A stretch of DNA of 53,905 bases from Phormidium sp. FACHB-1136 (GTDB lineage: Bacteria > Cyanobacteriota > Cyanobacteriia > Phormidesmidales > Phormidesmidaceae): assembly GCF_014697375.1 (NCBI RefSeq), contig NZ_JACJRS010000036.1:1-53905 (forward strand). Reading direction: 5' to 3'. Positions 26,082 through 53,905 of the stretch are shown here, piece by piece. Position numbers and translations under genes: made by a program. Under the pieces are notes generated by a model that made no database searches, was not told the DNA's origin, and saw only the letters and a list, made by a program, of their open reading frames with translations. Within the stretch, counting starts at the first letter, position 1; every line of letters begins with the position of its first letter.

Positions 26082-26089
26082 TTTTAATC

Positions 26090-26128: not shown

Positions 26129-26169
26129 CGGCCTACTGCAATACCCCCTTCGTGGGGCGGAATTTTAGG

Positions 26170-26571: not shown

Positions 26572-26577
26572 CGCCAT

Positions 26578-27456: not shown

Positions 27457-27459
27457 GCT

Positions 27460-27933: not shown

Positions 27934-27942
27934 GGGGTTAAT

Positions 27943-31420: not shown

Positions 31421-31631
31421 AGATCTGCGGTGAGCCGTTGGCGCAACGCATCAAAGCGCTGCCAAACCATCTCAGGTGTCTGGGGTGAGGTCATCTGGGC
31501 CAGGGCTGGATCGCATTTTGCGACTTCATAACTATTTAGCTATATTAGATATACTTGGCCCCCGCCCAACGTCGGTGCGAGGCCCCGTACCAACTCGCCT
31601 TCTCTAAAACCTACGAATGCAGGAAAAGACC

Positions 31632-34833: not shown

Positions 34834-34873
34834 GGAGGCTTGCCTAGGGGGCGGAAGAGCCGCCGACCGGGGG

Positions 34874-36079: not shown

Positions 36080-36223
36080 GGACAATTCTGGTAAAATGAG
36101 GAACGTCTTGATCAGCCTGTGGTTCTCTCATTTTCTCTGAGAAAAGAGCCTGAGGATAGATAGGATGGAAAATCTCTAGGAGTGGATCACAAAGGTCTGC
36201 CAGCCGATCAAATCATCTAGCCA

Positions 36224-36739: not shown

Positions 36740-36870
36740 CGCAACATAAAAACAGAATTAGAACATGAGAGAAAATTACAGTAGGATTTTGTCGTGATTA
36801 ACCACAAGTCTGAAGTCACTAAGGATCTACTGTCACCCTTAATTATCCCCCTGCATTGTGTTCCCAAAGG

Positions 36871-37398
36871 CTATAATGCGACCTGTTGATTTATTGCCCC
36901 TATTTGGCTTTTTCCAGATTGCGCAATAAAGTAATGCTTGATTTGGTTGTCATCAATGGTGACGTTAAATTTCTCGTCGGCCACCTCTTTTCGGGTTAAA
37001 TCCCACGGAGAAGCGGGTAGATAGGCCATCTCAGAAAGCGTAATCGCATCGTAGTCTTTATACACTTCCCAGACCTTGTGTAATAGATGCACGATTTGCT
37101 CGTGATGTTTGAGATTTTCTAGTCTCGCTAGATCGTGAGGCTCCACTTCCAATTTTTTAAGGTTGATGGGTTGAGAGCCAAAGGATCGCAGCCAATAATA
37201 AATATTGCTGACCACAGAGCCGTAGCGCCATGCCTCAATGCTTTCTTCAATTAACGGCGAGTCTGTGATGGCTAGACACCAGCCGTGGGCAAAATAAATT
37301 AGTCGCTGCATTTTCATGGGCGAAATCTCAATGTTGTCTCGGTCACCCATCTCTAGGAAGAAAAGAGCTATCGTTTTCGCCCGATATGGTAAACCCAC
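36871..37398 (-). CDS. Panacea-domain (DUF4065, SocA-like) protein, probable antitoxin
   Basis: 175 residues covering one Panacea domain: ISPMKMQRLIYFAHGWCLAI, PLIEESIEAWRYGSVVSNIY, then a helical C-terminal part with ITLSEMAYLPASPWDLTR. The KMQRLIYFAHGW and EAWRYGSVV signatures are diagnostic. Panacea proteins act as antitoxins to many unrelated toxins. The gene is in an AT-rich patch between DUF4336 and UPF0182 genes and precedes the two-TM protein at 36224-36739. Start at the ATG at 37398. Confidence 0.8.
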   Translation of the reverse strand: MGLPYRAKTIALFFLEMGDRDNIEISPMKMQRLIYFAHGWCLAITDSPLIEESIEAWRYGSVVSNIYYWLRSFGSQPINLKKLEVEPHDLARLENLKHHEQIVHLLHKVWEVYKDYDAITLSEMAYLPASPWDLTRKEVADEKFNVTIDDNQIKHYFIAQSGKSQIGAINQQVAL

Positions 37399-37763
37399 TG
37401 AACCACACTCCTAGATAAACAATCTGAGTAATCTACGGTGCCCATCCCATGATTAACCGATGATGAAACCTATCGTCAATGTAGGCTGTACTAGCATTAC
37501 TCAATGTCAGCGCAAGGTGCTATTTTGATGGCGTGACCTGTTGTTTGGATTGCTGGCAAATCGGTGATGCACGGCATTCTAGAATCGGTGCTTCTTTAGC
37601 CATGCCGATTATACGCTATCCCCTCCCCAGGGCGGTCATCCGACCCTTGCGCAACTGCCAGCGGTGCCCATGGGGTAGGTCATCTACCCAGGTATCCCCC
37701 TGAACGGACGGGGGCCGGGGCGATAGAATTTGGGCAGACCCCGCCCTCCACCGCCTGAAACCG
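37399..37763. other. Spacer upstream of UPF0182
   Basis: 365 bp between divergent genes, with promoters expected on both strands. The only structure noted is a small hairpin, GGGTAG-GTCAT-CTACCC at 37673-37689, about 75 nt before the UPF0182 start. I see no gene or repeat. Confidence 0.4.
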
Positions 37764-40700: not shown

Positions 40701-40853
40701 CCCACCCTGCCCGATGTGCTGTCCGCCATTTTCCGAGAAGAACCCGCCCCCGCCCCACCCATCCTGCGGGAATTGGAGGAGGGCATTCCTGACGACGTTC
40801 CCCTTACTCCGCCCTTGGAGGGTGGCGATTTAAGTCTTCTATCGTCGTTCTAG
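37764..40853 (+). CDS. UPF0182 family large membrane protein
   Basis: 1029 residues, the usual length of UPF0182 proteins, which occur in cyanobacteria and actinobacteria. The N-terminal ~420 residues contain about seven membrane helices (including the typical ADAGVHLLAERLWFVEVNYV and the FQRDIGFYIFQLP segment). The C-terminal ~600 residues form a large extracytoplasmic domain (QRERPYIINSIALTRAAFDL, YPYSDPGDNNFNYIRNSVKV, RNNLIAWLAARSDGERYG). The function is unknown. Its 3' end overlaps the convergent kinase-like gene by 15 nt. Confidence 0.93.
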   Translation: MIKDAKYWLLTHWLWCVLAVAGLLLADAGVHLLAERLWFVEVNYVDVFWLRLRSQLLLGLVPIGLTLVFTWGNLALADRTTPLPSPSERVSKTQGLSLRGVLLLAGLLSFLVGAQLVYQGQLAANFWRETTTLYESTAPLPLWPKLQVFRVVVQILRNQPWLIGALGMSTVAFVVYPRQLGRLAAALMSLGFGLILAKQWPTVLLALNPVAFNETEPIFQRDIGFYIFQLPLLNLLEFWLIGVLFFTFVVVCLVYLLRGGTLSRGRFYGFSASQQQHLYTLAGLLFLITSVSHWLGRYDILYSQEGVVYGAGYTHIHVLLPMNWGLALLALAFGLVFLWRGLLWRPSYFNPMGKVSRRQSRIWGWFDLGCTSLLVNGICLYLVLALLGLVLAPAVVQRLVVQPNELQRERPYIINSIALTRAAFDLEAIDSEPFDPSGDLTVEDLERNDLTLENIRLWDPRPLLDSNRQLQQIRLYYEFKDADFDRYNILNQERRSERRQVMISARELNYERVPEIAKTWVNEHLVYTHGFGFTLSPVNTAGPDGLPTYFVRGIENTPSSEEVRQSIPIGDPRLYFGELTDTFIMTNTKVLELDYPSGNENIYTTYLGRGGIPLDHPWRRLLFARHLKDWRMLFTEDFTPDTRLLFRRNIAERVRAIAPFLRFDTDPYLVTVDIGDHSRQWGTGDGHGSAPPERVNLQVFGDRDPGFIAANFNTQTGENYLYWVIDAYTVSSRYPYSDPGDNNFNYIRNSVKVVVDAFNGSVAFFVSEPKDPIIQAWSGLVPGMFEPLTAMPDDLRAHIRYPQDLFSVQADALMTYHMTDPQVFYNREDQWRAPTEIYARETQRVEPYYLIMKLPQEESEEFILLRLFTPAQRNNLIAWLAARSDGERYGRRLLYRFPKQELVFGPEQIEARINQDPEISQRISLWDTQGSRAQQGNLLVIPIEQSLIYVEPLYLVADQNQLPALTRVIMVYKNRIAMAPTLPDVLSAIFREEPAPAPPILRELEEGIPDDVPLTPPLEGGDLSLLSSF

Positions 40854-41366
40854 ATCCCTTAACCGCCCTTCCACCTGGTCAGCGTTGGCCTCGGCTTCGA
40901 GGGCATACACCGCCCAAAATCCCTCTGATGGTAGGGGTGGACATTGCCGTAGCGCCGCATGGGCTGCATCAATCACCCCTGCGGGCACCTGGCGTTCCCG
41001 GCTTTGGTTCCACTGGTGGCAGGTGGCCAAGGGCGTGGTCAAATACCAGCCGATCCAGTCGGCCCCCAAGGGTGCTAGCCGCCGCAACAGCGCGATCCGC
41101 CAAGATCGCTGGGTATTGGTGGCATCGTAAATCACACTCTGCCCCTGCTCCACCCCCTGACCAATCCGCCGGATCACCTCTGCCTCAATCTCCGGCCACG
41201 ATCCCTGCTCCGCCGCGTTGCCGTAGAGATCCTGACGAATCTGGTCGGTAGACACAAGGCAACGGTGGGGTAACCCCGCCTGCATCCGCTGGGCCAGGGT
41301 GCTTTTGCCGCTTCCCGGTGGCCCAATCAACAGGTGGCAACGCAACGGAACCCCCATTTCTGCCAT
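40839..41366 (-). CDS. P-loop ATPase, polynucleotide-kinase-like
   Basis: 175 residues from the ATG at 41366. GGAGGGAGGG lies upstream of that ATG; a start at 41420 is open but adds unconserved residues. Walker A is LLIGPPGSGKSTLAQRM. CLVSTDQIRQDLYGNAA and VIYDATNTQRSWR match the AAA_33/Pnkp-like kinases, which phosphorylate nucleic-acid ends or small molecules; the substrate is unknown. The last 15 nt overlap the UPF0182 gene tail to tail. Confidence 0.82.
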   Translation of the reverse strand: MAEMGVPLRCHLLIGPPGSGKSTLAQRMQAGLPHRCLVSTDQIRQDLYGNAAEQGSWPEIEAEVIRRIGQGVEQGQSVIYDATNTQRSWRIALLRRLAPLGADWIGWYLTTPLATCHQWNQSRERQVPAGVIDAAHAALRQCPPLPSEGFWAVYALEAEANADQVEGRLRDLERR

Positions 41367-41941
41367 GCCTTGCGGCCCTCCCTCCACGGAATAGGCCCAT
41401 TGTAGGGGCGCAACGGCCATCCTGCCCTAGTCAGCACGAAGGTCGTACCCCGTGTAACGGTTGGTGTCTCTAGGTAACATCGCGCAAAGTCTTCTAAAGA
41501 GATATCGAGATCCCCTTGTTTTCCCATTATTTTGATGATCCCAATCCCTAGATGTGCCCGTATCGATCTGTAAACAGATCCCTGCTTTTCGGGGGGGATC
41601 AGATACCGTGAAACTAGAGCCTAGATGAGGAATAATCGCCTTTTAGAAAGGGCTGTGTTGTTAAAGACGAATGCTGAGAATAGAGTCGGCCCATGGCTCA
41701 GAGAGCAGAGGCTTACAGGATTTTTTCGATACGGTACTATCCACTGAAGTGCTTGAATCTATCCTAATTCCTGGGCGCTCTTCATTTCTCATTAGCCTCA
41801 ATGAAATCATAAGATTCTCTTAAATTGTTTTCTGTTAAACATCGTTTATTTTGAATATGAGTTCGGATTATCTCAACGAACTTCCTGCTTTGGTTGTAGT
41901 GCTTTCTAGGGCTACAACTGGTTTCTCTAAAGGGTTGTGCC
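41367..41941. promoter_or_regulatory. Upstream region of the hox locus
   Basis: 575 bp that should contain the hoxE promoter (regulators such as LexA and AbrB-like proteins are known in other cyanobacteria; no site is assigned here). A hairpin in the leader, GTTGTAG at 41893-41899 with CTACAAC at 41912-41918, ends about 24 nt before the ATG. AAGGG lies 8-9 nt before the hoxE ATG. No gene is seen. Confidence 0.5.
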
Positions 41942-42472
41942 ATGTCACCCACCGCTACTACGTCCACCGTTGAGCCCGCCGCCAAAAAGGAAAAAGCTGC
42001 CAAGCCCGATCTGCGCTTCAAACGCCTCGACATCACCATGAAGCGGCAGCAGTATGCCCCCGATGCGCTGATTGAGGTGCTCCACATCGCCCAGGAAGCC
42101 TTTGGTTTCTTGGAAGAAGACGTGCTGAAGTACGTCGCCCACGGCCTAAAACTTCCCCTCAGCAAGGTCTATGGCGTCGCCACGTTTTACCATCTGTTCT
42201 CCCTCAAGCCCAGCGGTGCCCACACCTGCGTGGTCTGCATGGGGACGGCCTGCTACGTGAAGGGCGGCGACAAGGTGGTGGAAAAACTACAAGCGGAACT
42301 GGGCATTGAACTGGGGGAAACCACCCCCGACGGCAAGGTGTCCCTAATGGCGGCTCGCTGCCTGGGAGCCTGTGGCATTGCCCCCGCCGTGGTGTTTGAC
42401 GGCACCGTGGGCGGCAAGCTCTCCCCGGAGGAGGCCGTCGCCAAGGTCAAAGTTTGGGAAGGGGAAGGATAA
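41942..42472 (+). CDS. hoxE: Bidirectional hydrogenase subunit HoxE
   Basis: 176 residues. A thioredoxin-like [2Fe-2S] subunit related to NuoE that links the diaphorase to electron carriers. Cys ligands are seen in VVCMGTACYVKGG and in MAARCLGACGIAPAVV. The core YAPDALIEVLHIAQEAFGFL and KVYGVATFYHLFSL match NuoE/HoxE. The ~25-residue Ala/Lys-rich N-terminal tail is not conserved. It is first in the hox locus, 128 nt before hoxF; that gap holds a run of GGCAAA repeats. Confidence 0.95.
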   Translation: MSPTATTSTVEPAAKKEKAAKPDLRFKRLDITMKRQQYAPDALIEVLHIAQEAFGFLEEDVLKYVAHGLKLPLSKVYGVATFYHLFSLKPSGAHTCVVCMGTACYVKGGDKVVEKLQAELGIELGETTPDGKVSLMAARCLGACGIAPAVVFDGTVGGKLSPEEAVAKVKVWEGEG

Positions 42473-42600
42473 AAGCCTTTGAAGCCTGAGTTTTGGACGT
42501 GACCGAACGCGGTTGAGGTCGAAAGGCAAAGGGCAAAAGGCAAAGGTCAGAACTCTCTCCATCTCCCCATCCTCCCCATCCCTCCTACAGGAGACACATT

Positions 42601-44241
42601 ATGGATTTACAAGAACTCAAAACCGTCGCCAAGGCGGAACAGGAACGCCAGAAGCCCGTGCGGGTGCATTGCTGTACCTCGACGGGGTGTCGGGCGGCGG
42701 ATGCCATGGGCATCTACGGCAATTTGAAGCAGGCGGTGACGGATCATCACCTGGAGGATCGGGTGGAGGTGGTGGGAGTGGGCTGCATGGGCTTTTGTGG
42801 CCGTGGCCCGCTGGTGCAGGTCGATCCTGACGAGTTGCTGTATGAGGAAGTCACCCCCGACCAAGCGGCCAGCATCATTGAGGCGATGGATGGCGGCACG
42901 GCTCAGCCCATCCAGGGGGATGTGAACCATCCCTTCTTTGCGCGGCAAATGCGGGTGGTGCGCGAGTATAGCGGCAAAATTGACCCGGAACGCATCGAGG
43001 AATACATCGCGGTGGGCGGCTACGAATCGCTACACAAGGCGATTTACGAAATGACCCCCGCCGAGGTGGTGGATCAAATTTCTAAAAGTGGCCTGCGGGG
43101 GAGGGGTGGCGGCGGCTATCCCACCGGGCTGAAGTGGGCCACGGTGGCGAAAATGCCCGAAGGCCAAAAGTACATCATCTGCAACGGCGATGAGGGCGAT
43201 CCGGGGGCGTTTATGGATCGCAGCATCCTAGAAAGCGATCCCCACCTTGTCCTAGAAGGCATGGCGATTGCGGGCTATGCGGTGGGGGCCAACCACGGCT
43301 ACATCTACGTGCGGGCGGAATATCCTCTGGCCATTGCTCGGTTGCAGAAAGGCATTCAGCAGGCCAAAAAGTACGGCCTGTTGGGCAGCCAAATTTTCGA
43401 TTCGGCCTTTGACTTCAAAATCGACATCCGCATTGGGGCCGGGGCCTTTGTGTGCGGCGAAGAAACGGCGCTGATCCAGTCCATCGAAGGCGGGCGCGGC
43501 AACCCCATTCCTCGGCCTCCCTACCCGGCCCAAAAGGGGCTGTATGGCTGCCCAACGCTGATCAACAACGTGGAAACCCTGGCCAACATTACGGCCATCA
43601 TCCGCAACGGGGCCGACTGGTATTCCAGCATCGGCACCGAAAACAGCAAGGGCACCAAAATCTTTGCGCTAACGGGCAAAATTCGCAACAACGGCCTAAT
43701 CGAAGTGCCCATGGGCATCACCCTCCACCAAATTGTCGAAGAAATGGGCGGCGGCGTCCCCGATGGCGAGGTGAAGGCCGTGCAGACGGGTGGCCCCTCC
43801 GGCGGCTGTATCCCCAAATCCATGCTAGATACCCCGGTGGACTACGATTCCCTCCGCAAGGTGGGCTCCATGATGGGTTCCGGCGGCATGGTGGTGATGG
43901 ACGACTCCACCAGCATGGTCGGCATTTCCCAGTTTTATATGGAGTTCTGCCGAGGGGAAACCTGCGGGAAGTGCGTCCCCTGTCGCACGGGCACGGTGCA
44001 GCTCTACGCCATGCTGTCCAAAATCCTCAAGCGCCAAGCCACCAAGGACGACCTGGCCAAAATGGAAGCCCTCTGCGAAATGGTGCGCGACACCAGCCTC
44101 TGCGGCCTGGGCCAAACCGCACCCAACCCCGTCCTCAGCACCCTGAAATACTTCCGGGAAGAGTACGAAGAACTGCTGATCGAACCGGAATACCTCAGCG
44201 ACCTCAACGGCAAAACCGCCCCCCAAGAGGTGAACGCATGA
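42601..44241 (+). CDS. hoxF: Bidirectional hydrogenase diaphorase subunit HoxF
   Basis: 546 residues, the NAD(P)-binding flavoprotein related to NuoF. An N-terminal [2Fe-2S] module (HCCTSTGCRAAD, GCMGFCGRGPLVQ) is followed by the NAD site GLRGRGGGGYPTGLKW, the FMN site NGDEGDPGAFMDRSILESDP, and a C-terminal [4Fe-4S] motif ETCGKCVPCRTGTVQLY with a later Cys in SLCGLGQTAPNP. It passes electrons between NAD(P)H or ferredoxin and HoxU/HoxYH. AGGAG precedes the ATG by about 8 nt. All expected ligands are present. Confidence 0.97.
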   Translation: MDLQELKTVAKAEQERQKPVRVHCCTSTGCRAADAMGIYGNLKQAVTDHHLEDRVEVVGVGCMGFCGRGPLVQVDPDELLYEEVTPDQAASIIEAMDGGTAQPIQGDVNHPFFARQMRVVREYSGKIDPERIEEYIAVGGYESLHKAIYEMTPAEVVDQISKSGLRGRGGGGYPTGLKWATVAKMPEGQKYIICNGDEGDPGAFMDRSILESDPHLVLEGMAIAGYAVGANHGYIYVRAEYPLAIARLQKGIQQAKKYGLLGSQIFDSAFDFKIDIRIGAGAFVCGEETALIQSIEGGRGNPIPRPPYPAQKGLYGCPTLINNVETLANITAIIRNGADWYSSIGTENSKGTKIFALTGKIRNNGLIEVPMGITLHQIVEEMGGGVPDGEVKAVQTGGPSGGCIPKSMLDTPVDYDSLRKVGSMMGSGGMVVMDDSTSMVGISQFYMEFCRGETCGKCVPCRTGTVQLYAMLSKILKRQATKDDLAKMEALCEMVRDTSLCGLGQTAPNPVLSTLKYFREEYEELLIEPEYLSDLNGKTAPQEVNA

Positions 44242-44285
44242 TGTCTGTGATCCTTGGCTTGGCCCACCCTGCGGGAAGCAAGCTA

Positions 44286-44377
44286 CACCCCAGCCCCTCT
44301 CCCGGTCAGGAGAGGGGGGCCGGAAGCTGCCTTCAAAGTCTCTCTCCCACCTTGGGAGAAGGATTTAGGGTGAGGGC
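44286..44377. repeat. MITE-like palindromic repeat in the hoxF-qor gap
   Basis: Two GC-rich hairpins: CCCCTCTCC with GGAGAGGGG (44294-44317), and TCTCCC with GGGAGA (44343-44359). It ends GGGTGAGGGC. The end and internal pattern match the larger element at 47068-47221, so it looks like a truncated member of the same repeat family. Confidence 0.65.
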
Positions 44378-44416
44378 CAACCTACGCCAAACGGCAGTTT
44401 GCCCCAGGAGGTCGCC

Positions 44417-45466
44417 ATGAGTTATCAGCGTGTGATCATCCCCCGCCACGGCCATGCCGAGGTGCTGCAACTGGTGGAAGAGGCAGAATTGCCCTTCCCA
44501 AATCCCGACCAGGTGCGGCTGCGGGTTCTCGCTGTCGGTGCGGCCTATACGGATGTGCTGATTCGGGAAGGGATGTATCCCGGTATTCCCAAGCCGCCCT
44601 TTTCGCCCGGTTACGAGGTGGTGGGCGAAGTTGACCAACTGGGGGAATCCGTCACCGGGTTTGCCCTCGGTCAACGGGTCGTCGCCCTCACCGTCACCGG
44701 GGGCTATAGCGAATACCTCTGTGTGGCGGCGGATGAACTGGTGCCCCTGCCCGACGGGGTGGATGCCAACGAAGCGGCCTGTCTGGTGCTGCAATACGTC
44801 ACGGCGTATCAGCTCATCCACCGAGTCGCCAAGTTGCAACCGGGGCAGCGGGTGCTAATCCACGGGGCCGGGGGCGGCGTGGGGACGGCCTTGCTAGAAA
44901 TCGGCCAAATCCTAGGGCTAGAGATGTACGGCACCGCCTCTACGGCCAAGCATGACTTGGTGCGACGGTTGGGCGGCACTCCCATCGACTACCAGCGGGA
45001 GGACTTTGTTGAGCGAGTCCATGCCCTGACTGCATCCGGCACCGGGAACGGCAAAAAGTCCGGCGTGGATGCGGTGTTTGACGGTATTGGCGGCGGGCAT
45101 CTGCGACCGTCCTACAACGCCCTGGCCCCTGGGGGACGGTTGGTGTGCTACGGCTTTTCGGCAGCGATGCAGAGTCGGCAGCGTCAACTGGCCTTTGCCG
45201 CCACCTTTGGGCTGATGATGGCGCTGAAACTGTGGCCTGACGGCAAACAGGTTTCGTTCTACAGCATTACCGGGCTGAAGCAGGCCCACCCTGACTGGTT
45301 TAAGCAGGATCTCGCCCTGCTGCTCGACTGGCTGGGGGCGGGGCAGATTCGTCCGGTAATTGCTCAGCGGTTGCCCCTGCGGCAGGCCGTGACCGCTCAC
45401 CAGTTGCTCGACCGGGGAGCGGTGGCGGGGCAGTTAGTTTTGGTTTGTACTGGCGAAGGAGAATAA
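44417..45466 (+). CDS. Zinc-free quinone oxidoreductase-like (MDR superfamily) protein in the hox locus
   Basis: 349 residues from the ATG at 44417, six nt after a perfect AGGAGG. The catalytic-domain residues (AYTDVLIREGMYPGIPKPPF, PGYEVVGEVDQLG) and NAD(P)-binding VLIHGAGGGVGTALLEIG match the QOR branch of medium-chain dehydrogenases. The zinc-binding Cys and His of alcohol dehydrogenases are absent. It probably reduces quinones or enones with NADPH. Its stop is 2 nt before the hoxU ATG, so it is translated with the hydrogenase genes; a link to hydrogenase function is inferred from position alone. Confidence 0.88.
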   Translation: MSYQRVIIPRHGHAEVLQLVEEAELPFPNPDQVRLRVLAVGAAYTDVLIREGMYPGIPKPPFSPGYEVVGEVDQLGESVTGFALGQRVVALTVTGGYSEYLCVAADELVPLPDGVDANEAACLVLQYVTAYQLIHRVAKLQPGQRVLIHGAGGGVGTALLEIGQILGLEMYGTASTAKHDLVRRLGGTPIDYQREDFVERVHALTASGTGNGKKSGVDAVFDGIGGGHLRPSYNALAPGGRLVCYGFSAAMQSRQRQLAFAATFGLMMALKLWPDGKQVSFYSITGLKQAHPDWFKQDLALLLDWLGAGQIRPVIAQRLPLRQAVTAHQLLDRGAVAGQLVLVCTGEGE

Positions 45467-45468
45467 CC

Positions 45469-46185
45469 ATGGCCGTAAACACCCTAAATATTGATGGCAA
45501 AGACATTGCCGTAGAGGCAGGCACCAGCATTCTGGATGCGGCCAAGGAAGCGGGGGTGCCCATCCCCAAACTTTGCCACCTAGAGGGAGTCACCCCCGTG
45601 GGGGCCTGTCGCCTGTGCCTGGTGGAAATTGAGGGCATGAACAAAATGCTGCCCGCCTGTGTCACCGAGGTGTGGGAGGGCATGGTGATCCACACCCAAA
45701 CGCCCAAGCTGCAAGAGTATCGGCGCATGACGGTGGAGCTGATCTTCGCCGAGGGCAACCACGTTTGCTCCATCTGCGTGGCCAATGGCAACTGCGAATT
45801 GCAGGATGTGGCCATCGAGGTGGGCATGGATCACAGCCGTTTCCCCTACCGTTTCCCGGATCGGGGCGTGGATCTCTCCCATCCCCTGTTTGGCATCGAC
45901 CACAACCGCTGCATCCTCTGTACCCGCTGCGTTCGGGTGTGCGACGAGGTGGAGGGTGCCCACGTTTGGGATGTGGGCAATCGCGGCGCGGCTTGTTACA
46001 TTGTCTCCGGGTTAGATCAACCCTGGGGCGAGGTAGACGCCTGTACCTCCTGTGGCAAATGCGTAGATGCCTGCCCGACCGGAGCCATCTTCAAACAAGG
46101 CAGCACCACGGGCGAAAAACAGGCCGACGCCGACAAGCTCGAATTTCTATCCACCGCACGGGAGAAGCATCAATGGACAAGATAA
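45469..46185 (+). CDS. hoxU: Bidirectional hydrogenase diaphorase subunit HoxU
   Basis: 238 residues from the ATG at 45469, with GAAGGAG upstream; this matches the usual HoxU length. It is the NuoG-like ferredoxin subunit. The [2Fe-2S] plant-type site is LCHLEGVTPVGACRLCLVE; a His/Cys cluster follows (HVCSICVANGNCELQD); two [4Fe-4S] motifs are HNRCILCTRCVRVCDE and CTSCGKCVDACPTGAIF. It relays electrons between HoxF and HoxY. The last 13 nt overlap hoxY. Confidence 0.97.
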   Translation: MAVNTLNIDGKDIAVEAGTSILDAAKEAGVPIPKLCHLEGVTPVGACRLCLVEIEGMNKMLPACVTEVWEGMVIHTQTPKLQEYRRMTVELIFAEGNHVCSICVANGNCELQDVAIEVGMDHSRFPYRFPDRGVDLSHPLFGIDHNRCILCTRCVRVCDEVEGAHVWDVGNRGAACYIVSGLDQPWGEVDACTSCGKCVDACPTGAIFKQGSTTGEKQADADKLEFLSTAREKHQWTR

Positions 46186-46724
46186 GATTTGCCACGGTAT
46201 GGCTGGCGGGTTGTTCGGGCTGCCACATGTCGTTTTTGGATTTGGATGAGTTTTTAATCGACCTGGCCGACCTAGTGGAGGTGGTCTATAGCCCCGTGGG
46301 CTGCGACCTGAAGGAGTATCCCGACAACGTGGATGTGTGCCTGGTGGAAGGGGCCGTCGCCAACGAAGACAACCTAGAGCTGATCCACGAAGTACGCCGC
46401 AAAACCAAGCTGCTGATCTCCTTTGGCGACTGCGCCGTTACCGCCAACGTGCCCGCCATGCGGAATATGCTCCGCAATAGTGCCGAGGGTGTCCTCAAAC
46501 GCGGCTACCTAGAACTGGCGGACGAAAACGCCCAGCTTCCCCACGCTCCCGGCATCGTGCCAGAGCTGATGGATCGGGTTACCCCCGTCCACGAAATCGT
46601 GCCCGTGGATATCTTTATGCCCGGTTGTCCTCCCTCTGCTGATCGCATCCGGGCTACCATTGAACCGCTGCTACAAGGGCAACAACCCAACATGGCAGGA
46701 CGCGAAATGATTAAATTCGGATAG
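46173..46724 (+). CDS. hoxY: Bidirectional NiFe-hydrogenase small subunit HoxY
   Basis: 183 residues. The start is the ATG at 46173 inside the end of hoxU (the open frame runs further upstream but only in hoxU sequence). Cluster ligands are in VWLAGCSGCHMSFLDLDEF, LISFGDCAVTANVPAMR and DIFMPGCPPSADRI, the proximal [4Fe-4S] site of NiFe hydrogenases. It conducts electrons to and from HoxH. GGAG lies about 9 nt before the ATG. Confidence 0.97.
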   Translation: MDKIRFATVWLAGCSGCHMSFLDLDEFLIDLADLVEVVYSPVGCDLKEYPDNVDVCLVEGAVANEDNLELIHEVRRKTKLLISFGDCAVTANVPAMRNMLRNSAEGVLKRGYLELADENAQLPHAPGIVPELMDRVTPVHEIVPVDIFMPGCPPSADRIRATIEPLLQGQQPNMAGREMIKFG

Positions 46725-46744
46725 TTCGATTAGGAGGAACAACC

Positions 46745-46978
46745 ATGAGCGTTGACAGCAAAGAGTTCAATGAAGAGCTGCAAAAAGCCATCGACTATGC
46801 CCACCAAGTAACGGCTGAGAAGGGCGAAACCTCCCCCGAAGCCGCCGCCGCCTGGGATGCCGTCGAAGAAATGCGCGCCGAAGTGTCTCACCAACACCAA
46901 AAGCCCAAGCAAACCGGCTTTGATAAGTACCTCGAAGAAAACCCCGAAGCCATCGAGGGCTTGATGTACGACAGCTAA
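46745..46978 (+). CDS. CP12-family small protein lacking all four redox cysteines
   Basis: 77 residues, preceded by AGGAGG. The CP12 core is plain: AEKGETSPEAAAAWDAVEEM (compare the AWDxVEEL signature), then VSHQ, and a tail FDKYLEENPEAIEGLMYDS that aligns with the usual YCEENPxAxECxxYxD. Canonical CP12 forms two disulfides and binds GAPDH and phosphoribulokinase in the dark. Here the four Cys positions read T, A, L and G, so thiol switching is impossible. It lies 20 nt after hoxY in the hydrogenase locus. It may bind GAPDH constitutively or have been recruited to the hydrogenase; neither is shown. Confidence 0.82.
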   Translation: MSVDSKEFNEELQKAIDYAHQVTAEKGETSPEAAAAWDAVEEMRAEVSHQHQKPKQTGFDKYLEENPEAIEGLMYDS

Positions 46979-46985
46979 GCCCCCA

Positions 46986-47027
46986 GGTTTATCGGGCACA
47001 GTGTGATATCTGGATGCCCGATAAACC
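46986..47027 (+). terminator. Strong hairpin after the CP12-like gene
   Basis: GGTTTATCGGGCA (46986-46998) pairs perfectly with TGCCCGATAAACC (47015-47027), a 13-bp stem with a 16-nt loop starting 7 nt after the stop. A short TTTT follows some 5 nt later. It could terminate part of the transcripts or protect the hoxEFUY message, so hoxH may be expressed differently. Confidence 0.6.
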
Positions 47028-47067
47028 CACCCTTTTACCCCTGGTTGATCTGGCCCTTGCCCCCAAG

Positions 47068-47221
47068 CCTCGGAAAGCCCTCACCCCCAACCCCTCTCCC
47101 AGGGAGGAGAGGGGAGCCGAGCCAAATCCATCCCTCCGGTTCCCTCTCTCTGTGAGATGTGGTTTCTGTACCTCCGGTTCCCTCTCCCCGTGGGAGAGGG
47201 CTAGGGTGAGGGCTTCCGAGG
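47068..47221. repeat. MITE-like element in the gap before hoxH
   Basis: About 154 bp with long inverted ends. CCTCGGAAAGCCCTCACCC on the left pairs with GGGTGAGGGCTTCCGAGG on the right, with a single bulged base. Inside are more palindromic CCTCTCCC/GGGAGAGG blocks and a direct repeat CTCCGGTTCCCTCTC. It shares its GGGTGAGGGC end with the shorter repeat at 44286. It has no coding capacity. Confidence 0.8.
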
Positions 47222-47279
47222 ATCTGGCCCACAGCGTCAGGGCCACAACCCACCTTTCACCCTCCCCGGAGACCCCACC

Positions 47280-48704
47280 ATGGCAAAAACCGTAGTTATC
47301 GACCCCGTCACCCGCATCGAAGGCCACGCCAAAATTTCGGTCTTCTTGGATGATGCGGGCAACGTCTCCAATGCCCAGTTCCATGTGGTGGAATATCGGG
47401 GGTTTGAAAAGTTCTGCGAGGGCCGTCCCTACACCGAAATGGCAGGCATCACCGCCCGCATCTGCGGCATTTGCCCCGTCAGCCACCTGATTTGCTCCGC
47501 CAAAACGGGCGACAAAATCCTATCGGTGAAAATTCCCGAAACCGCCGATAAGCTGCGCCGCCTGATGAACCTAGGCCAGATCACCCAGTCCCACGCCCTC
47601 TCCTTCTTCCACCTCAGCAGCCCCGACTTTTTGCTGGGCTGGGATAGCGACCCCGCCAAACGCAACGTCTTTGGCCTCATCGCCGCCGACCCCGACCTGG
47701 CCCGCGCCGGAATTCGCCTGCGCCAGTTTGGCCAAAAAGTGATCGAAATCCTCGGTGGCCGCAAAATCCACGCCGCCTGGACGGTGCCCGGTGGCGTCCG
47801 CGAACCCCTCAGTGAAGAAGGCCGCGCCTGGATCGTAGACCGCCTGCCCGAATCCTTCGCCACCATCCGCAAAGCCCTCGATATCTTCAAAGGGCTAATC
47901 AGCGGCCCCATGCAGGAAGAAGTGGGCATTTTTGGCGAATTTCCCTCCCTGTTCATGGGCCTAGTTGGCAAAGATGGCCTCTGGGAGCACTACGACGGCC
48001 ACCTGCGCTTCTCCGACAGCAGCGGCAACATCGTCGCCGATGGCCTCAGCGAAGACGACTATCAAACCTTTCTCGGCGAAGCGGTCGAAAACTGGTCGTA
48101 CCTCAAATTCCCCTACTACAAGCCGATGGGCTACCCCGACGGCATCTACCGCGTCGGCCCCCTGGCACGGCTCAACGTCTGCGACCGCATCGGCACCCCC
48201 CAAGCCGACGCCGAACTGCAAAACCTGCGCGACTACGCAGGCGGCGTGCCCACCTCCTCCTTCCTCTACCACTACGCCCGCCTCGTCGAAATCCTCGCCT
48301 GCCTAGAGCACATCCAAATCCTCATGGATGACCCCGATATCCTCTCCAAGCGCGTCCGTGCCCACGCCGGAGTGAATGCCCTAGAAGCGGTCGGCGTTAG
48401 CGAAGCCCCCCGTGGCACCCTCTTCCACCACTACAAAGTAGACGACAACGGCCTCATCCAAAAGGTGAACCTAATCATCGCCACGGGCCAAAACAACCTG
48501 GCCATGAACAAAACCGTCACCCAAATCGCCAAACACTACATCCACAGCGAAGACATCCCCGAAGGCTTCCTCAACCGCGTCGAAGCCGGAATCCGCTGCT
48601 ACGACCCCTGCCTCTCCTGCTCCACCCACGCCGCAGGGCAAATGCCCCTCCATGTACAACTCGTCGCCGCCGATGGGGGTGTGATTCGGGAGGTGTATCG
48701 GTAG
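47280..48704 (+). CDS. hoxH: Bidirectional NiFe-hydrogenase large subunit HoxH
   Basis: 474 residues, the catalytic subunit. The NiFe centre ligands are in [20 protein letters not shown] (first CxxC) and [19 protein letters not shown] (second CxxC). The DPCxxCxxH motif is followed by ~24 residues that the HoxW protease would remove after nickel insertion, so this is the unprocessed precursor. The N-terminal [20 protein letters not shown] is typical. HoxW and the Hyp maturation genes are not in the window. GGAG lies about 10 nt before the ATG. Confidence 0.97.
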
Positions 48705-48842
48705 GTCAAGCTGATGCACATTTAAACTGCATGATGGCTTTCTCTGAAGCTCTTGCTGAAAGGCTTTTAGATCAATCTAGTCAATGTATTTTAAGTGACT
48801 AAAAGCTTAGCCCTGTATCTTTTGGCTACAAGCTTACTTTGG

Positions 48843-48874
48843 GATCTTAGAGGAAATGTTCCTAGCCTAAGATC
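48843..48874. terminator. Hairpin between hoxH and the defence island
   Basis: GATCTTAG-AGGAA-ATG-TTCCT-AGC-CTAAGATC folds into 8 bp plus 5 bp with a 3-nt bulge. It lies ~140 nt after hoxH and ~90 nt before the OLD-family gene, where base composition turns AT-rich. It may end hox transcription; no T-run follows. Confidence 0.4.
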
Positions 48875-48960
48875 TCAAGGGCTGTAGCAATAAATTAGGG
48901 AAAAATTATTGTTCAGTCATCAAGCAAGTCACAGACATATTTTCGTTCAAGGTTTCAAGA

Positions 48961-50799
48961 ATGTTTCTCAAAGAAGTTGTTCTGAAAAATTTTAGAGGAT
49001 ACAAGGGTGAATGCCGGATTTCTACAGAGAGATTGACTGCCTTTATTGGCAAAAATGACGCAGGGAAATCATCAATTTTTGATGCTTTAGCAATTTTCTT
49101 TGATCATCCTTTAGGAAAGATTGATGAAAATGACCTGTGTGTTCATGCTGATGATGCTTGTGAAATTCGTATTGGCTGTGTCTTTACTAGCCTCCCAGAC
49201 CAAATCATTATAGACTCAGCTTCCAGAACATCTCTAGCCAATGAATATCTATTAAATTCAAATGGAGACTTGGAAATCCATAAAATATATGACTGCTCAT
49301 CAGGATTAAGCAGGAAATCAAAAATAGTAGCCATTGCAAATCATCCCACGGCTAGCGATTGCAAAGATCTCTTGGCTAAGAAGAACTCTGATCTCAAAAG
49401 AATAGCTAAATCTCTCTCTCTAGGTGATGACGTAGATAATCGCTCAAATGCGGCTTTAAGGCAGGCGATCTGGCAAGCATACAGTGACTTAGAACTCCGG
49501 GAAACTGAAGTTAAGCTAGACAAAGAGGATGCAAAACACATCTGGGATAAAATTTCTAATTACTTGCCAGAATATGCTTTATTTAGAGCTGATCGTCCTT
49601 CTACGGATGAGGATACAGAAGTGCAAGATCCTTTGAAAATTGCTATAAGGCAAGCAATTCAAGAAGTTCAGCAAGAGCTTGATGTTGTAAAGGAAAAAGT
49701 CAAGGCTCGTGCAATTGAAGTTGCTAATAGAACTCTAGCAAAACTATCAGATTTTGATGATGCACTTGCATCTCAACTGAATCCATTCTTTAGGACAGAT
49801 CCTAAGTGGGATAGTCTCTTCAAGTTAGCACTTACTGATGATAATGACATTCCTATAAACAAACGCGGTAGTGGTGTGCGTAGGCTAGTGTTGTTTAGCT
49901 TTTTTCGGGCCGAAGCAGAAAGACTAAGAGAAGAAAATAATAAAGGAAATATTATCTATGCTGTAGAAGAGCCAGAGACTGCTCAACATCCTAACAATCA
50001 AAGGAAAGTAATTGAGGCTTTATCTTCAATCTCAGAAGTTGATGGATGTCAAGTTTTACTCACTACTCACGTACCTGCATTGGCTTCTCTTTTACCTGTA
50101 GATTCAATTCGTTACATTGAAAGGCAGAATTGTGGGGATAGACTAATCAGTTCTGGAAGTGATGAAGTATTTTCTAGAGTTGCATCTGATCTTGGAATTG
50201 TGCCAGACAGAAGAGCACAAGTTTTAGTTTGTGTTGAGGGGCCGCATGATTTACAATTCCTAAGAAGAATTAACTCAATACTTTTAGAACAAGATTTATC
50301 TGTAATCGATATTTTCTCTGATCCACGGATAGCCTTGGTGGTTCTTGGTGGCAGCACTCTTCAGGAGTGGGTTAATCAACACTACCTAAAAAATCTTGGA
50401 TTACCAGAAATCCATATATATGATCGAGACTTACCTCGCGATGATGGCACTTATAAGTATCAAAGCTCAGCAGATATTGTCAACGCTAGGGGTGATAATT
50501 CTTTAGCGTTTTTGACCCAAAAAAGAGAGATGGAAAACTATCTGCACATAGATGCATTAAATGAGGTGTTTCAACCACTAATCAACAATAGTTTCACATT
50601 CTCTGTCACAGATGAGTGTGATGTTGAGGGTGAAATAAAAAGTGCTCTAAATGGTCAAGCTAAAATTCAGCGAAGATCTCTCAAATCTTGGCTGAATGAT
50701 GAAGTGGCAAGCCAAATGAACATAGATAGGTTGAGGGAAAGGGATGCTGAAAATGAAATTATAAATTGGTTCCTTGAAATAAGACAACGACTAACTTAA
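48961..50799 (+). CDS. OLD-family nuclease: AAA ATPase plus TOPRIM domain
   Basis: 612 residues. The N-terminal ATPase has FRGYKGECRI, Walker A IGKNDAGKSSIFDALAIFF, a signature-like RGSGVRRLVLF and Walker B IIYAVEEPETAQHP. A helical segment interrupts it. From ~residue 420 a TOPRIM nuclease domain has LVCVEGPHDLQFLRRI, then IHIYDRDLP and KREMENYLHID. OLD proteins cut DNA and act in phage defence. No UvrD-like helicase (GajB) follows, so this is not a Gabija operon. The ENYL block also recalls the DUF4435 TOPRIM of PARIS systems, so a fused version of that is an alternative. It is AT-rich, as is the island it opens. Confidence 0.85.
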   Translation: MFLKEVVLKNFRGYKGECRISTERLTAFIGKNDAGKSSIFDALAIFFDHPLGKIDENDLCVHADDACEIRIGCVFTSLPDQIIIDSASRTSLANEYLLNSNGDLEIHKIYDCSSGLSRKSKIVAIANHPTASDCKDLLAKKNSDLKRIAKSLSLGDDVDNRSNAALRQAIWQAYSDLELRETEVKLDKEDAKHIWDKISNYLPEYALFRADRPSTDEDTEVQDPLKIAIRQAIQEVQQELDVVKEKVKARAIEVANRTLAKLSDFDDALASQLNPFFRTDPKWDSLFKLALTDDNDIPINKRGSGVRRLVLFSFFRAEAERLREENNKGNIIYAVEEPETAQHPNNQRKVIEALSSISEVDGCQVLLTTHVPALASLLPVDSIRYIERQNCGDRLISSGSDEVFSRVASDLGIVPDRRAQVLVCVEGPHDLQFLRRINSILLEQDLSVIDIFSDPRIALVVLGGSTLQEWVNQHYLKNLGLPEIHIYDRDLPRDDGTYKYQSSADIVNARGDNSLAFLTQKREMENYLHIDALNEVFQPLINNSFTFSVTDECDVEGEIKSALNGQAKIQRRSLKSWLNDEVASQMNIDRLRERDAENEIINWFLEIRQRLT

Positions 50800-50837
50800 T
50801 AACAGAATTTTCTAGCAAGAAAGCAGAGCAGTCACGA

Positions 50838-50907
50838 CCCTCCACACCACCCACACCCCAGTACCAGCCCCTTTTCTACAACGGCATAGAAAGAAATTAT
50901 TGGCAAA
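50838..50907. repeat. Island repeat, copy a
   Basis: CCACACCACCCACACCCCAG, then ACCAGCCCCTTTTCTACAAC, GGCATAGAAA and AAATTATTGGCAAA. It is homologous to copies b and c, with a few extra bases (AGAA) before AAATTATTGG. It lies between the OLD-family gene and the MNT gene. Confidence 0.85.
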
Positions 50908-50948
50908 GAGACTGAAGTTGGGAGAGTTATCAACCTTTAGGTTCCGTG

Positions 50949-51239
50949 ATGAAACGACAAGAAGCCATAACGGTACTCACAAACCACCAGAAGTCACTCA
51001 AAGATTTTGGTGTTAGATCCCTAATGATCTTCGGTTCAGTCGCCAGAGACGAGGCAAGACCCGACAGCGACGTTGACCTATTGGTAGAATTTGATCGTCC
51101 AGTCGGCCTATTTACCTTTGTTCGCCTAAAACGCTACCTAGAAGAAATCCTAGGTAGCCCCGTAGACCTAGGCACCCCCGACTCTCTCAAACCCTACTTA
51201 CAAGAAGCTGTGAGCCAGGAGGTAATCCGTGCCTTCTAA
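50949..51239 (+). CDS. MNT-type nucleotidyltransferase antitoxin (MntA-like)
   Basis: 96 residues from the ATG at 50949 (a GTG lies one codon upstream). The minimal nucleotidyltransferase motif is intact: IFGSVARDEARPDSDVDLLV, i.e. GS-x10-DxD. Such proteins neutralise HEPN toxins, in characterised cases by adding AMP to a Tyr. It overlaps the HEPN gene by 11 nt, so the two are co-translated. It follows repeat copy a. Confidence 0.92.
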   Translation: MKRQEAITVLTNHQKSLKDFGVRSLMIFGSVARDEARPDSDVDLLVEFDRPVGLFTFVRLKRYLEEILGSPVDLGTPDSLKPYLQEAVSQEVIRAF

Positions 51240-51579
51240 ACATTGGCAGAATCGTATTCAAGATATTTTATCTGCCATCTCAGAAATTCAATCTTTCACA
51301 GAAGGACTAACTTTTGAAGACTTTCAGAACGACCGCAAAACAATCGGAGCCGTACTATATACCCTCGCCATTATCGGCGAAGCCGCCCGCACCATCCCCC
51401 CAGAACTAGAATCCACCCATCCTGAAATACCCTGGAACGACATGCGCGACATGAGGAATATCATCATCCACGAATATTTCCAGGTAAATCTATCCATCGT
51501 CTGGCAAACGATCCAGGAGGATATCAATAATTTAGAACATCCTCTCAGGAACTTATTAGGTGATTCAGAGAGTAAGTAA
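51229..51579 (+). CDS. HEPN-domain ribonuclease toxin (HepT-like, DUF86)
   Basis: 116 residues, GTG start. The four-helix HEPN fold ends with RDMRNIIIHEYFQVN, which contains the R-x4-H-x-Y motif: Arg and His form the RNase centre, and Tyr is the target of AMPylation by the partner. YTLAIIGEAARTIPPEL is the other conserved block. All key residues are present, so the toxin should be active. It overlaps the MNT gene. Confidence 0.92.
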   Translation: MPSKHWQNRIQDILSAISEIQSFTEGLTFEDFQNDRKTIGAVLYTLAIIGEAARTIPPELESTHPEIPWNDMRDMRNIIIHEYFQVNLSIVWQTIQEDINNLEHPLRNLLGDSESK

Positions 51580-51586
51580 GTAGGGT

Positions 51587-51660
51587 GAGCACTGCCCACC
51601 ACACCACCCACATCCCATTACCAGCCCCTTTTCTACAACGGCATAGAAATTATTGGCAAG
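51587..51660. repeat. Island repeat, copy b
   Basis: Starts at GAGCACTGCCC, followed by ACCACACCACCCACATCCCA, TTACCAGCCCCTTTTCTAC, AACGGCATAG and AAATTATTGGCAAG. It is nearly identical to copy c and clearly related to copy a. It lies 8 nt after the HEPN stop. Confidence 0.9.
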
Positions 51661-51716
51661 CCTGCCTGAGCTAAAATCTAGATAAACCTCTATTCATCAC
51701 GCCCATGAGGTAAGCA

Positions 51717-51956
51717 ATGCCTATCGTCACACTCACCAACGAACAAGTTGTAGAACTGGTCAAACAGCTACCCGTTGAGCAGCAAACCGAAGTATTTCAG
51801 TTCTTGCTGCTTCAACAATGGCCATCCTGGGATGATCTATCAAAATATGGCGAAGACAAAGCCCGTCATGTAGCCCAAGAACGCGGCCACAACTGGGACA
51901 CCATGACCGAAGACGAGCGAGAAACCTTTATTGACCAGTTAGTGCATGAAAACTAG
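51717..51956 (+). CDS. Probable antitoxin of the PIN pair
   Basis: 79 residues. The N-terminal VTLTNEQVVELVKQLPVEQQ followed by VFQFLLLQQW resembles small cyanobacterial antitoxins that pair with PIN or RelE toxins. The acidic helical C-terminus (TEDERETFIDQLVHEN) would bind the toxin. The family assignment is weaker than for the toxin. Its stop shares one base with the GTG of the PIN gene (TAGTG), so the genes are coupled. Confidence 0.75.
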   Translation: MPIVTLTNEQVVELVKQLPVEQQTEVFQFLLLQQWPSWDDLSKYGEDKARHVAQERGHNWDTMTEDERETFIDQLVHEN

Positions 51957-52369
51957 TGCGATATACAGCCGTTTTCGATACCAACATCTTGATCTCAGCC
52001 CTGCTATCCACAAAGAGTAACCCATTTCGCAGCCTAGCCCTTGCCAAAATTGGCAAAATCGAGTCCATCACCTGCCAAGAAATTTTAGATGAGTTCGCTG
52101 AGAAACTGATCGTCAAATTCAAGTTCTCTCAAGAAATGACACAAGCCGCCGTTGAAGAAGTTGCTGGTTTCTCTCGATTAGTCAAAATATCAACAACCCT
52201 AAAAGTCGTTGAGGCCGATCCAGATGACGATATGGTTATTGAATGCGCCGTTGTTGGTAATACAACCCACATTGTCACTGGAGATAAACACCTTCTATCC
52301 ATAGCAAGATATGGTTCTATTGAAATCGTCAATGCTACTGATTTCATCGCGCTTTCAAATATGACTTAG
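51956..52369 (+). CDS. PIN-domain toxin (COG1569-like)
   Basis: 137 residues, GTG start. The PIN fold is clear: AVFDTNILISALLSTKSNPF with the first Asp, the helix ITCQEILDEFAEKL with a Glu, EADPDDDMVIECAVVG, and IVTGDKHLLSI with the final acidic site. PIN toxins cut RNA with Mg2+. It is probably neutralised by the preceding gene. Confidence 0.9.
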   Translation: MRYTAVFDTNILISALLSTKSNPFRSLALAKIGKIESITCQEILDEFAEKLIVKFKFSQEMTQAAVEEVAGFSRLVKISTTLKVVEADPDDDMVIECAVVGNTTHIVTGDKHLLSIARYGSIEIVNATDFIALSNMT

Positions 52370-52378
52370 CAAATAGAA

Positions 52379-52453
52379 TGGGCACTGCCCACCACACCAC
52401 CCACATCCCATCACCAGCCCCTTTCTACAACGGCCTAGGAAATTATTGGCAAA
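52379..52453. repeat. Island repeat, copy c
   Basis: TGGGCACTGCCC, which can form a GGGC/GCCC hairpin, then ACCACACCACCCACATCCCA, CACCAGCCCCTTTCTACAAC and GGCCTAGGAAATTATTGGCA. It is very close to copy b. It lies 10 nt after the PIN stop and ~18 nt before the restriction enzyme gene. Confidence 0.9.
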
Positions 52454-52470
52454 GCGCTAAAACCTAATTT

Positions 52471-53115
52471 ATGAATCTATTTGACCGCTCCCAGCACGTC
52501 TATACTTCTCCAGACTTTGATGAAATCATAAAAGACACCATCCGCTTCTTCAACGGCACACCTGTCCATCCTCTCCCTGTCCCAGAACGCTTTCATGGCA
52601 CAGGTATTTATGCCCTATACTGCATCGCTAAATCCGGCATCTATTCCAGATTTCATACGATGAATAGAACCGCCTTTAATATACCCATCTATGTCGGAAA
52701 AGCCGTCCCCAAAGGCTGGCGACAAGCGAGACAACCCGCATTCGAGACCCGCAGCTACGAGCTAAACAGTCGCCTTAACGAACATAGCCGCAGCATCGAT
52801 CAGGCCCAAAACCTAAACAAAGCAGATTTCTTCTGTCGCTTCATGATCCTCGAAGCCAAAGAAAGCGACCTAATCGGCACCGTAGAAGCTGCTCTGATTA
52901 GAGCCTATCAACCCATCTGGAACACCCTAATTGACGGCTTTGGTAATCATGACCCCGGCAAAGGCCGATACGAACAAGCCAAATCAGACTGGGATGTTTG
53001 TCATCCTGGTCGTCCTTGGGCAGAAAAGTGCCAAGGAATTCATGCCAACCGAGAAGACTTGCTAAAAAACATTGAAACTTTCATGTCTAGATTGAACAGT
53101 GAAGAAAATGTCTAA
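52471..53115 (+). CDS. Eco29kI-family type II restriction endonuclease (GIY-YIG)
   Basis: 214 residues. The GIY-YIG nuclease core is visible: GTGIYALYC (~residue 45), PIYVGKAVPKGWRQ (~74), Arg and His in NSRLNEHSRSI (101, 105), the metal-binding Glu in LIGTVEAALIRAYQPIWN (139) and its Asn (151). The flanking segments and size match Eco29kI, which cuts CCGCGG. The recognition site is inferred from the family, but agrees with the absence of CCGCGG in the window. Its end overlaps the methyltransferase by 8 nt. Confidence 0.92.
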   Translation: MNLFDRSQHVYTSPDFDEIIKDTIRFFNGTPVHPLPVPERFHGTGIYALYCIAKSGIYSRFHTMNRTAFNIPIYVGKAVPKGWRQARQPAFETRSYELNSRLNEHSRSIDQAQNLNKADFFCRFMILEAKESDLIGTVEAALIRAYQPIWNTLIDGFGNHDPGKGRYEQAKSDWDVCHPGRPWAEKCQGIHANREDLLKNIETFMSRLNSEENV

Positions 53116-53905
53116 ATTATCTTGCCTAGAATTGTTTGCAGGAGCCGGAGGTCTTGCAAAAGGGCTAGAAATGGCTGGCATCCAGCACAAAGCCCTAGTT
53201 GAAATCAATAAAAATGCCTGCCAAACGCTAGCCAAGAACTATCCCAGCCAACTGATTCATGATTTAGATGTTAGATCCTTTGATTTTAATCAGTTTGGCC
53301 ATATTGACATTATCTCCGGCGGCCCACCCTGCCAACCTTTTTCTATCGGTGGAAAGCACAGCGGGAACACCGACCAACGTGATATGTTTCCCTATGCCTG
53401 CAAAGCAATCAGCCTTTGCACACCCAAAGCCTTCATTTTTGAAAATGTTAAAGGACTTCTCCGAAAATCCTTTAGCAACTATTTTGAATACATCCTTCTA
53501 AGACTGACCTACCCTGAAGTTTATTGTAAAGAATCAGAATTCTGGCAAGATCACCTCATCAGGCTAGAAAAAATCCATACCTCAGGAAAATATAATGGGG
53601 TAAAATACAACGTTATTTTTCGTCTTCTAGATGCCGCCAACTACGGAATTCCCCAACGTCGTGAACGAGTCTTTATTATCGGCATCAAAGAAGATCTAAA
53701 TGTTGCTTGGTCTTTCCCAAAAGAGTCATACTCCTTAGACTCCCTCCTATGGTCACAATTTGTCAGCGGCGACTATTGGGAGAAGCATGGTATTAAGCCC
53801 TCAAGTATCGAACACTTAGATACAAAAACTCAACAACGTATTCAACAACTCACTCAACAACCTGCTCTATTTGCACCTCCCTCGAAACCGTGGCAAACCG
53901 TCCGA
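53108..53905 (+). CDS. C5-cytosine DNA methyltransferase (partial, cut by window end)
   Basis: Open from the ATG at 53108 to the window edge, 266 codons. C5-MTase motifs in order: I CLELFAGAGGLAKGLEMAG, IV SGGPPCQPFS with the catalytic Cys, VI FIFENVKGLL, VIII YGIPQRRERVFIIG. The target-recognition domain and motifs IX-X lie beyond the window. As the partner of the Eco29kI-like nuclease it should methylate a cytosine in the same site. The gene order (nuclease first, short overlap) is as in Eco29kI-type systems. Confidence 0.93.
   Translation, partial: MSKLSCLELFAGAGGLAKGLEMAGIQHKALVEINKNACQTLAKNYPSQLIHDLDVRSFDFNQFGHIDIISGGPPCQPFSIGGKHSGNTDQRDMFPYACKAISLCTPKAFIFENVKGLLRKSFSNYFEYILLRLTYPEVYCKESEFWQDHLIRLEKIHTSGKYNGVKYNVIFRLLDAANYGIPQRRERVFIIGIKEDLNVAWSFPKESYSLDSLLWSQFVSGDYWEKHGIKPSSIEHLDTKTQQRIQQLTQQPALFAPPSKPWQTVR

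Follow-up and report, generated by a model that had tools for sequence, protein, structure and literature searches.

Absence of CCGCGG beside an Eco29kI-type restriction gene in Phormidium belongs to a broad palindrome avoidance shared with congeners that lack the gene

A restriction gene adjoining DNA that is devoid of its predicted target raises the question of whether the enzyme itself has erased that word. The window, i.e. the whole stretch of DNA analyzed here (53,905 b), is the entire contig C191 of Phormidium sp. FACHB-1136 (G000; 5.98 Mb in a 260-contig assembly) and ends in such a gene. The original prediction held that CCGCGG is missing from the window while its one-base neighbors are common, and that a gap in exactly this palindrome reflects long action of an Eco29kI-type restriction-modification (R-M) system encoded at 52471-53905, or of its relatives. 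The absence itself was confirmed, with 0 sites in 53,905 b compared with a mean of 24.04 (sd 5.30) in 100 dinucleotide-preserving shuffles, and the neighbors are indeed plentiful (CCGCGA 15, CCGCGT 12, CCGCGC 7, TCGCGG 14, ACGCGG 8, GCGCGG 11). A count in the complete genome, which the prediction had proposed as a check, reveals the deficit to be genome-wide: 18 sites are present in 5,983,598 b, less than 1% of the ~2,039 expected from the second-order Markov rate of a 314 kb sample or the 2,669 expected from the window shuffle rate. The matched non-palindromic neighbor CCGCGA occurs 1,701 times on the forward strand of the same genome.

The gene pair proved to be a genuine Eco29kI-type system, as judged from its matches to PF09517, 3mx1 and PF00145, and lies at the end of an AT-richer island:

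52471..53115, + strand: R gene, Eco29kI-type GIY-YIG restriction endonuclease of 214 aa (PF09517, 3mx1)
53099..53905, + strand: M gene, m5C DNA methyltransferase truncated by the end of the contig after 269 aa (PF00145)
48961..53905, + strand: AT-richer island (GC 0.425 vs 0.572) with an AAA ATPase, MNT/HepT, a PIN-domain gene and the R-M pair

R scores 237.5 bits against PF09517 (RE_Eco29kI family; cut-off 30.8) and matches Eco29kIR (3mx1) in phmmer with E=1e-81 over residues 3-209. All six equivalents of the active-site residues listed for Eco29kI (PMC1952068) are present, namely Y49, Y76, R104, H108, E142, and N154, and the best 14 matches of R are all cyanobacterial. M overlaps R by 17 bases, scores 164.7 bits against PF00145 and contains PCQ and ENV motifs in its translation; its homologues adjoin R in genomes G039 and G036 (78 and 74% identity), where the reading frames containing them span 388 and 400 aa. 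By homology, CCGCGG is the predicted target of the pair. The island starts with an AAA_15/OLD-like ATPase gene (window 48961-50799; PF13175, 272 bits). Beside the R-M pair are a toxin-antitoxin-like nucleotidyltransferase/HepT module at 50946-51579 (PF01909, PF01934) and another toxin-antitoxin-like module at 51717-52369, in which a small ORF with no Pfam match precedes a PIN-domain gene (PF13470).

The proposed restriction of the gap to exactly this palindrome did not withstand a wider word count. Words were analyzed in a 314 kb sample of G000, consisting of the window and 20 stretches picked by contig number, and were called depleted below 0.2 of the second-order Markov expectation at an expectation cut-off of 8. 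By this measure 22 of the 64 palindromic hexamers are depleted, so that depletion is not specific to the Eco29kI-type site. In the window itself, 18 of the 64 are at zero:

1..53905, no strand: window-wide absence, by counts and shuffles, of CCGCGG and 17 other palindromic hexamers: GGGCCC, CCCGGG, GCCGGC, GGCGCC, CGGCCG, GCATGC, AGGCCT, CAGCTG, CTGCAG, CGCGCG, GAGCTC, ACCGGT, CGATCG, CTCGAG, GTCGAC, ACGCGT, CGTACG

All eight G/C-only palindromic hexamers stand at or below 0.06 of expectation in the sample. Shorter or degenerate words are affected likewise, with GGWCC at 14 observed vs 389 expected, RCCGGY at 0.02 and CYCGRG at 0.06 of expectation, and each of the nine non-palindromic hexamers below 0.1 in the ranked list contains GGWCC or fits RCCGGY. 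No such depletion is seen for TGGCCA, CCATGG, AGCGCT, and CCTAGG, whose counts come close to expectation or exceed it. A single motif CMGCKG, uniting CCGCGG and CAGCTG, was considered and rejected, since CCGCTG/CAGCGG is at 2.08 of expectation; RGCGCY, GGYRCC, YGGCCR, and GTYRAC were rejected as single explanations because other members of these sets are near expectation.

The 22 avoided palindromes occur 7 times vs 397 expected in the window outside the island, and 96 times vs 1,921 expected in the other sampled G000 stretches. In 16S and 23S rRNA, 18 are observed vs 27.9 expected. For comparison, 14 control palindromes total 210 in the part of the window beyond the island, where 172 would be expected. 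Chance, composition or an assembly artefact can practically be dismissed as the cause: no supporting point was found, and against it stand 0 sites vs 24 in the window and 18 vs about 2,000 in the genome, as well as the abundance of CCGCGA and of the control palindromes and the partial retention of avoided words in rRNA. The absence of CCGCGG is real and far beyond chance. The island is also free of the 22 words (0 observed vs 14.8 expected), implying either a purged donor or long residence in the genome; its missing words do not date R.

Two of the 18 surviving genomic CCGCGG sites are located in rRNA and one spans a repeat edge in a CRISPR-like array. Fragments around 14 of the 18 contain 0 or 1 of 19 other avoided palindromes. 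A foreign location as a general rule for the survivors was thus not borne out. The array itself (L001:1000-1986 on G000:C13) comprises 15-16 direct repeats at 63-64 base spacing.

If the resident system had made the gap, related genomes without R should retain the word, and the prediction itself named an equal deficit in such relatives as grounds for its refutation. The word is not retained: R was not found in G014 or G021 in a search of 26 genomes of the genus, and both show an equal CCGCGG deficit, with 0 vs 45 expected in the G014 sample, 0 vs 40 expected in the G021 sample and 3 vs 215 expected in 500 kb of G014. The avoidance is similarly broad in these two genomes. Among palindromic hexamers with an expectation of 8 or more, those below 0.2 number 21 of 50 in 100 kb of G014, 25 of 64 in 500 kb of the same genome and 20 of 48 in 85 kb of G021; depleted-word counts for G002, G021, and G022 were first run at a cut-off of 5, not 8. 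Word profiles cover 12 of the 25 other genomes of the genus. Among the sampled genomes that aligned, G014 and G021 are the closest to G000, as far as small alignments tell: G014 is 83.1% identical over 26.7 kb, the highest value measured, and G021 79.2% over 3.6 kb. No alignment to G000 was obtained for the sampled genomes G003, G012, G022, G005, and G041. Protein identities between samples rest on few matches, with G008 scoring as high as G014, and G012 is 79.7% identical to G014.

G000, G014, and G021 also share the loss of HIP1 (GCGATCGC), which is down to 0.013, 0.004, and 0.012 per kb, respectively, and is kept at 0.41-1.34 per kb in 13 other sampled genomes, G012 among the HIP1-positive ones. 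G015, G016, G018, G022, and G023 entered the HIP1 screen with a locus of 3.3-3.6 kb each and were not counted on that basis; no HIP1 was found in the loci of G016 and G022. CGATCG follows the same division, with 8 observed vs 116.6 expected in G000, 6 vs 204 in G014 and 3 vs 37 in G021, and 3.3-8.9 times expectation in 11 other sampled genomes; counts for G002 and G022 are 108 vs 45 and 50 vs 10 expected. G000 is thereby a HIP1-deficient genome, low in both HIP1 and CGATCG, with HIP1-rich relatives. A replacement HIP octamer was sought in G000 and G014, and none stood out. HIP1 is retained in the genomes G032 and G041 despite 24 and 20 depleted hexamers, respectively; palindrome purge and HIP1 loss are therefore separate traits. 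Most sampled congeners have reduced counts of G/C-only palindromes, so that something other than R-M systems may be responsible.

Does the Eco29kI-type family nevertheless affect its own site? R is rare, being present in three of 57 genomes of a first set (G000 counted), in one of the 26 genomes of the genus searched, and in 19 of 338 genomes of the class, 15 of which were judged full length from their matches. Its effect was analyzed in 162 of the 338 genomes, comprising all members of the six families in which a full-length carrier occurs. Within these cyanobacterial families the median density of CCGCGG in the 15 carriers (3.7 per Mb) is roughly one fifth of that in the 147 non-carriers (19.0 per Mb; Mann-Whitney p=0.00015), in line with an effect of the system as originally proposed. 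A family-stratified permutation, which 12 of the 15 carriers enter as families f4 and f7 consist of carriers only, yields p=0.0016. GGCGCC, used as a composition-matched control in place of genome GC content and itself avoided in G000, does not differ between carriers and non-carriers (p=0.21, Mann-Whitney; p=0.27, stratified); for the log ratio, the corresponding values are p=0.013 and 0.037. Depletion is missing in two of the 15 carriers, G386 with 50 sites per Mb and G292 with 45. Non-carriers can be as poor in the word, with whole-genome counts of 4 in G041, 11 in G032, 17 in G002, 26 in G021 and 27 in G014; G041 and G032, which lie outside the genus, have fewer sites than G000, G014, and G021.

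Partial or broken R matches in G138, G161, G222, and G322 belong to other families and are outside the carrier count. The copy in G138 (C1:2013574-2014432) is interrupted by an internal stop; this genome contains 71 CCGCGG sites in 5.1 Mb and may show the trace of a system that is dying out. GGCGCC is very frequent in G303 (9,489 in 3.8 Mb) and G031 (3,074 in 7.7 Mb), where it may be an alternative HIP.

Carriers from other phyla point in the same direction as the cyanobacterial test. Across 63 carrier loci outside the Cyanobacteria, the lowest of the eight G/C-only palindromes is CCGCGG at 0.167, next to GGGCCC at 0.170, and in the 37 loci with enough expectation CCGCGG has a mean rank of 2.46 of 8. 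It is below GGCGCC in 33 of 40 non-cyanobacterial carrier genomes, a comparison without non-carrier control; for these genomes, 50 of 80 loci were chosen by eye for long contigs and 49 were searched. The Eco29kI-type family thus seems to leave a mark on CCGCGG, yet is neither necessary nor always sufficient for its depletion. These associations are what speaks for the explanation that CCGCGG was removed through long action of the resident system, or of an ancestral copy since lost from the relatives, the other palindromes being a separate matter. We regard this as unlikely, given that G014, G021, G032, and G041 lack R and still have few CCGCGG sites, that R was found in a single genome of the genus, and that the 21 other purged palindromes would stay unexplained. 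R may be ancestral and then lost in relatives. As the relatives without R are also without CCGCGG, the word was probably gone before R arrived.

To follow the loss site by site, nine HIP1-positive congeners were aligned with G000, G014, and G021; the latter three share genes, so that the counts are not independent. Of 141 palindromes of the erased type in the HIP1-positive congeners, one is kept in the aligned G000/G014/G021 sequences, compared with 36 of the 178 palindromes used as controls (p=4e-9) and 85 of 341 assorted non-palindromes. CGATCG is kept at one of 88 sites (p=3e-6 vs control). Taken alone, G000 keeps 0 of 50 erased-type palindromes, 14 of 71 controls and 0 of 31 CGATCG. CCGCGG itself is kept at 0 of 4 sites, too few alone. 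Lost HIP1 sites (48) show changes at all eight positions, 10-18 each, in alignments that are diverged, with several changes per site, and the other purged words are replaced by varied neighbors. Varied replacements together with retention in rRNA suggest purging via many mutations, restrained by constraint, a pattern that seems to be as expected of selection against words.

A mutational route without selection, in which methylcytosine deamination or biased mismatch repair changed the palindromes into their neighbors, can be weighed against the same data. CCACGG, one C-to-T step away from CCGCGG, reaches 1.50, 1.66, and 1.64 times expectation in G000, G014, and G021, with a range of 0.78-1.57 in ten other genomes compared, and Elhai 2015, in the part concerned with HIP dynamics, proposes that these are driven by repair. 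CAGCGG, which is no C-to-T neighbor, is raised as well (2.08, 1.75, and 2.06 vs 1.13-1.76), rRNA retains two thirds of the expected avoided words, and the HIP1 changes are even over the eight positions, a weak test in diverged alignments. A deamination signal was sought in neighbor counts and alignments without a clear result. We consider a purely mutational origin very unlikely.

Are the purged words guarded by resident methylases? An inventory of four Pfam families in the 260-contig assembly identified two m5C methyltransferases, the window M gene and one on C251. The latter adjoins a gene for a distant BbrUII/HgiDII-family nuclease (NF050001, 152 bits; cut-off 550). HgiDII cuts GTCGAC, a word that is also among those purged in G000. 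Two PF01555 enzymes both contain DPPY, which is typical of adenine methylases, and one of the two is encoded next to a gene for a Sau3AI/MutH-like nuclease. On C183 (L255:4630-6155) a CcrM-like methylase gene is followed by a Sau3AI/MutH-family nuclease gene (NF040973, 73 bits, below the cut-off of 300; PF02976, 50 bits). PF02384 and PF07669 gave 22 and 21 matches on together 25 contigs, which probably represent many Type I and IIG systems. Adenine methylases are unable to guard G/C-only words, and Rusinov et al. (PMC4687349) report that genomes mostly do not avoid the targets of Type I and IIG systems. Two m5C methylases in a fragmented assembly face eight purged G/C-only words. Assuming one word per methylase, at least six of the eight would have no resident guardian unless systems were missed; the four-family inventory may have overlooked some.

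We consider it likely that CCGCGG is one item in a purge, common to the congeners, driven by Type II R-M systems that followed one another over a long time and are now mostly gone from the genome. Unmethylated sites would have been costly through occasional under-methylation, methylase loss, or cutting on entry, and mutations destroying them would have been favored until few sites remained, with relatively many survivors in constrained sequence such as rRNA. Among the words purged in this way would be the eight G/C-only hexamers, the degenerate words GGWCC, RCCGGY and CYCGRG, and CGATCG; the last is the core of the cyanobacterial HIP1 repeat, and its loss would have taken HIP1 along. The Eco29kI-type pair would be a patchy, perhaps recent member of this succession that probably acts against CCGCGG today and contributes to its rarity. 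Regarding the order of events, we infer that CCGCGG was probably already rare before the pair arrived, making the neighboring R gene probably at most a late contributor to the absence. An improbable variant places the restriction filter outside the single genome, in a shared gene pool cleaned of all common sites at once. If that were true, genes would persist only by passing among strains with different, fast-turning restriction systems, and HIP1/CGATCG, the most over-used cyanobacterial palindrome, would be near-forbidden together with ~20 others without matching resident systems.

It can thus be misleading to find a restriction gene next to DNA from which exactly its target word is missing. 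G000, G014, and G021 and their HIP1-rich congeners constitute a natural experiment on HIP1 loss and on the persistence of traces left by lost systems. Within one genus CGATCG passes from several-fold over-used to below 0.1 of expectation, which makes Elhai's methylation model of HIP1 testable. The phenomenon is of a known kind, here extreme, and the HIP1 inversion within the genus is its most interesting part.

Several known systems can be compared. Like Eco29kI (PMC1952068; PDB 3mx1, 3mx4, 3nic), as described in the sections used here, the G000 pair combines an R protein homologous over nearly its full length with an adjacent m5C methylase; it differs in that M is incomplete in the assembly and the CCGCGG target is assigned by homology. 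Rusinov et al. 2015 (PMC4687349) read avoidance common to relatives as vestiges of lost R-M systems, and as in their account, palindromes here are strongly under-represented in close relatives whether or not a system is encoded. Unlike the cases in the part of that study considered here, G000 has ~20 hexamers purged together, most below 0.1, with two m5C methyltransferases found. Microcystis PCC 7806 is likewise a cyanobacterium with rare palindromic 6-mers, 18 being below 0.1 of shuffled frequency when the bins of Table 5 are summed (PMC2442094). Microcystis is rich in restriction genes, with 21 putative restriction enzymes given in the same portion of that report; G000 differs in that HIP1 is purged too. 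In the parts of Elhai 2015 that bear on these strains, HIP1 is tied to CGATCG and GATC methylases, HIP1-poor strains are listed, of which Calothrix PCC 7103 and Richelia are also depressed in CGATCG, and a GATC-specific nuclease is linked to HIP1 loss in Calothrix PCC 7103. G000 resembles these HIP1-poor cyanobacteria in having lost HIP1 with CGATCG strongly depressed, and departs from the strains described there in that three sampled congeners, G000, G014, and G021, share the HIP1 loss at 0.004-0.013 per kb.
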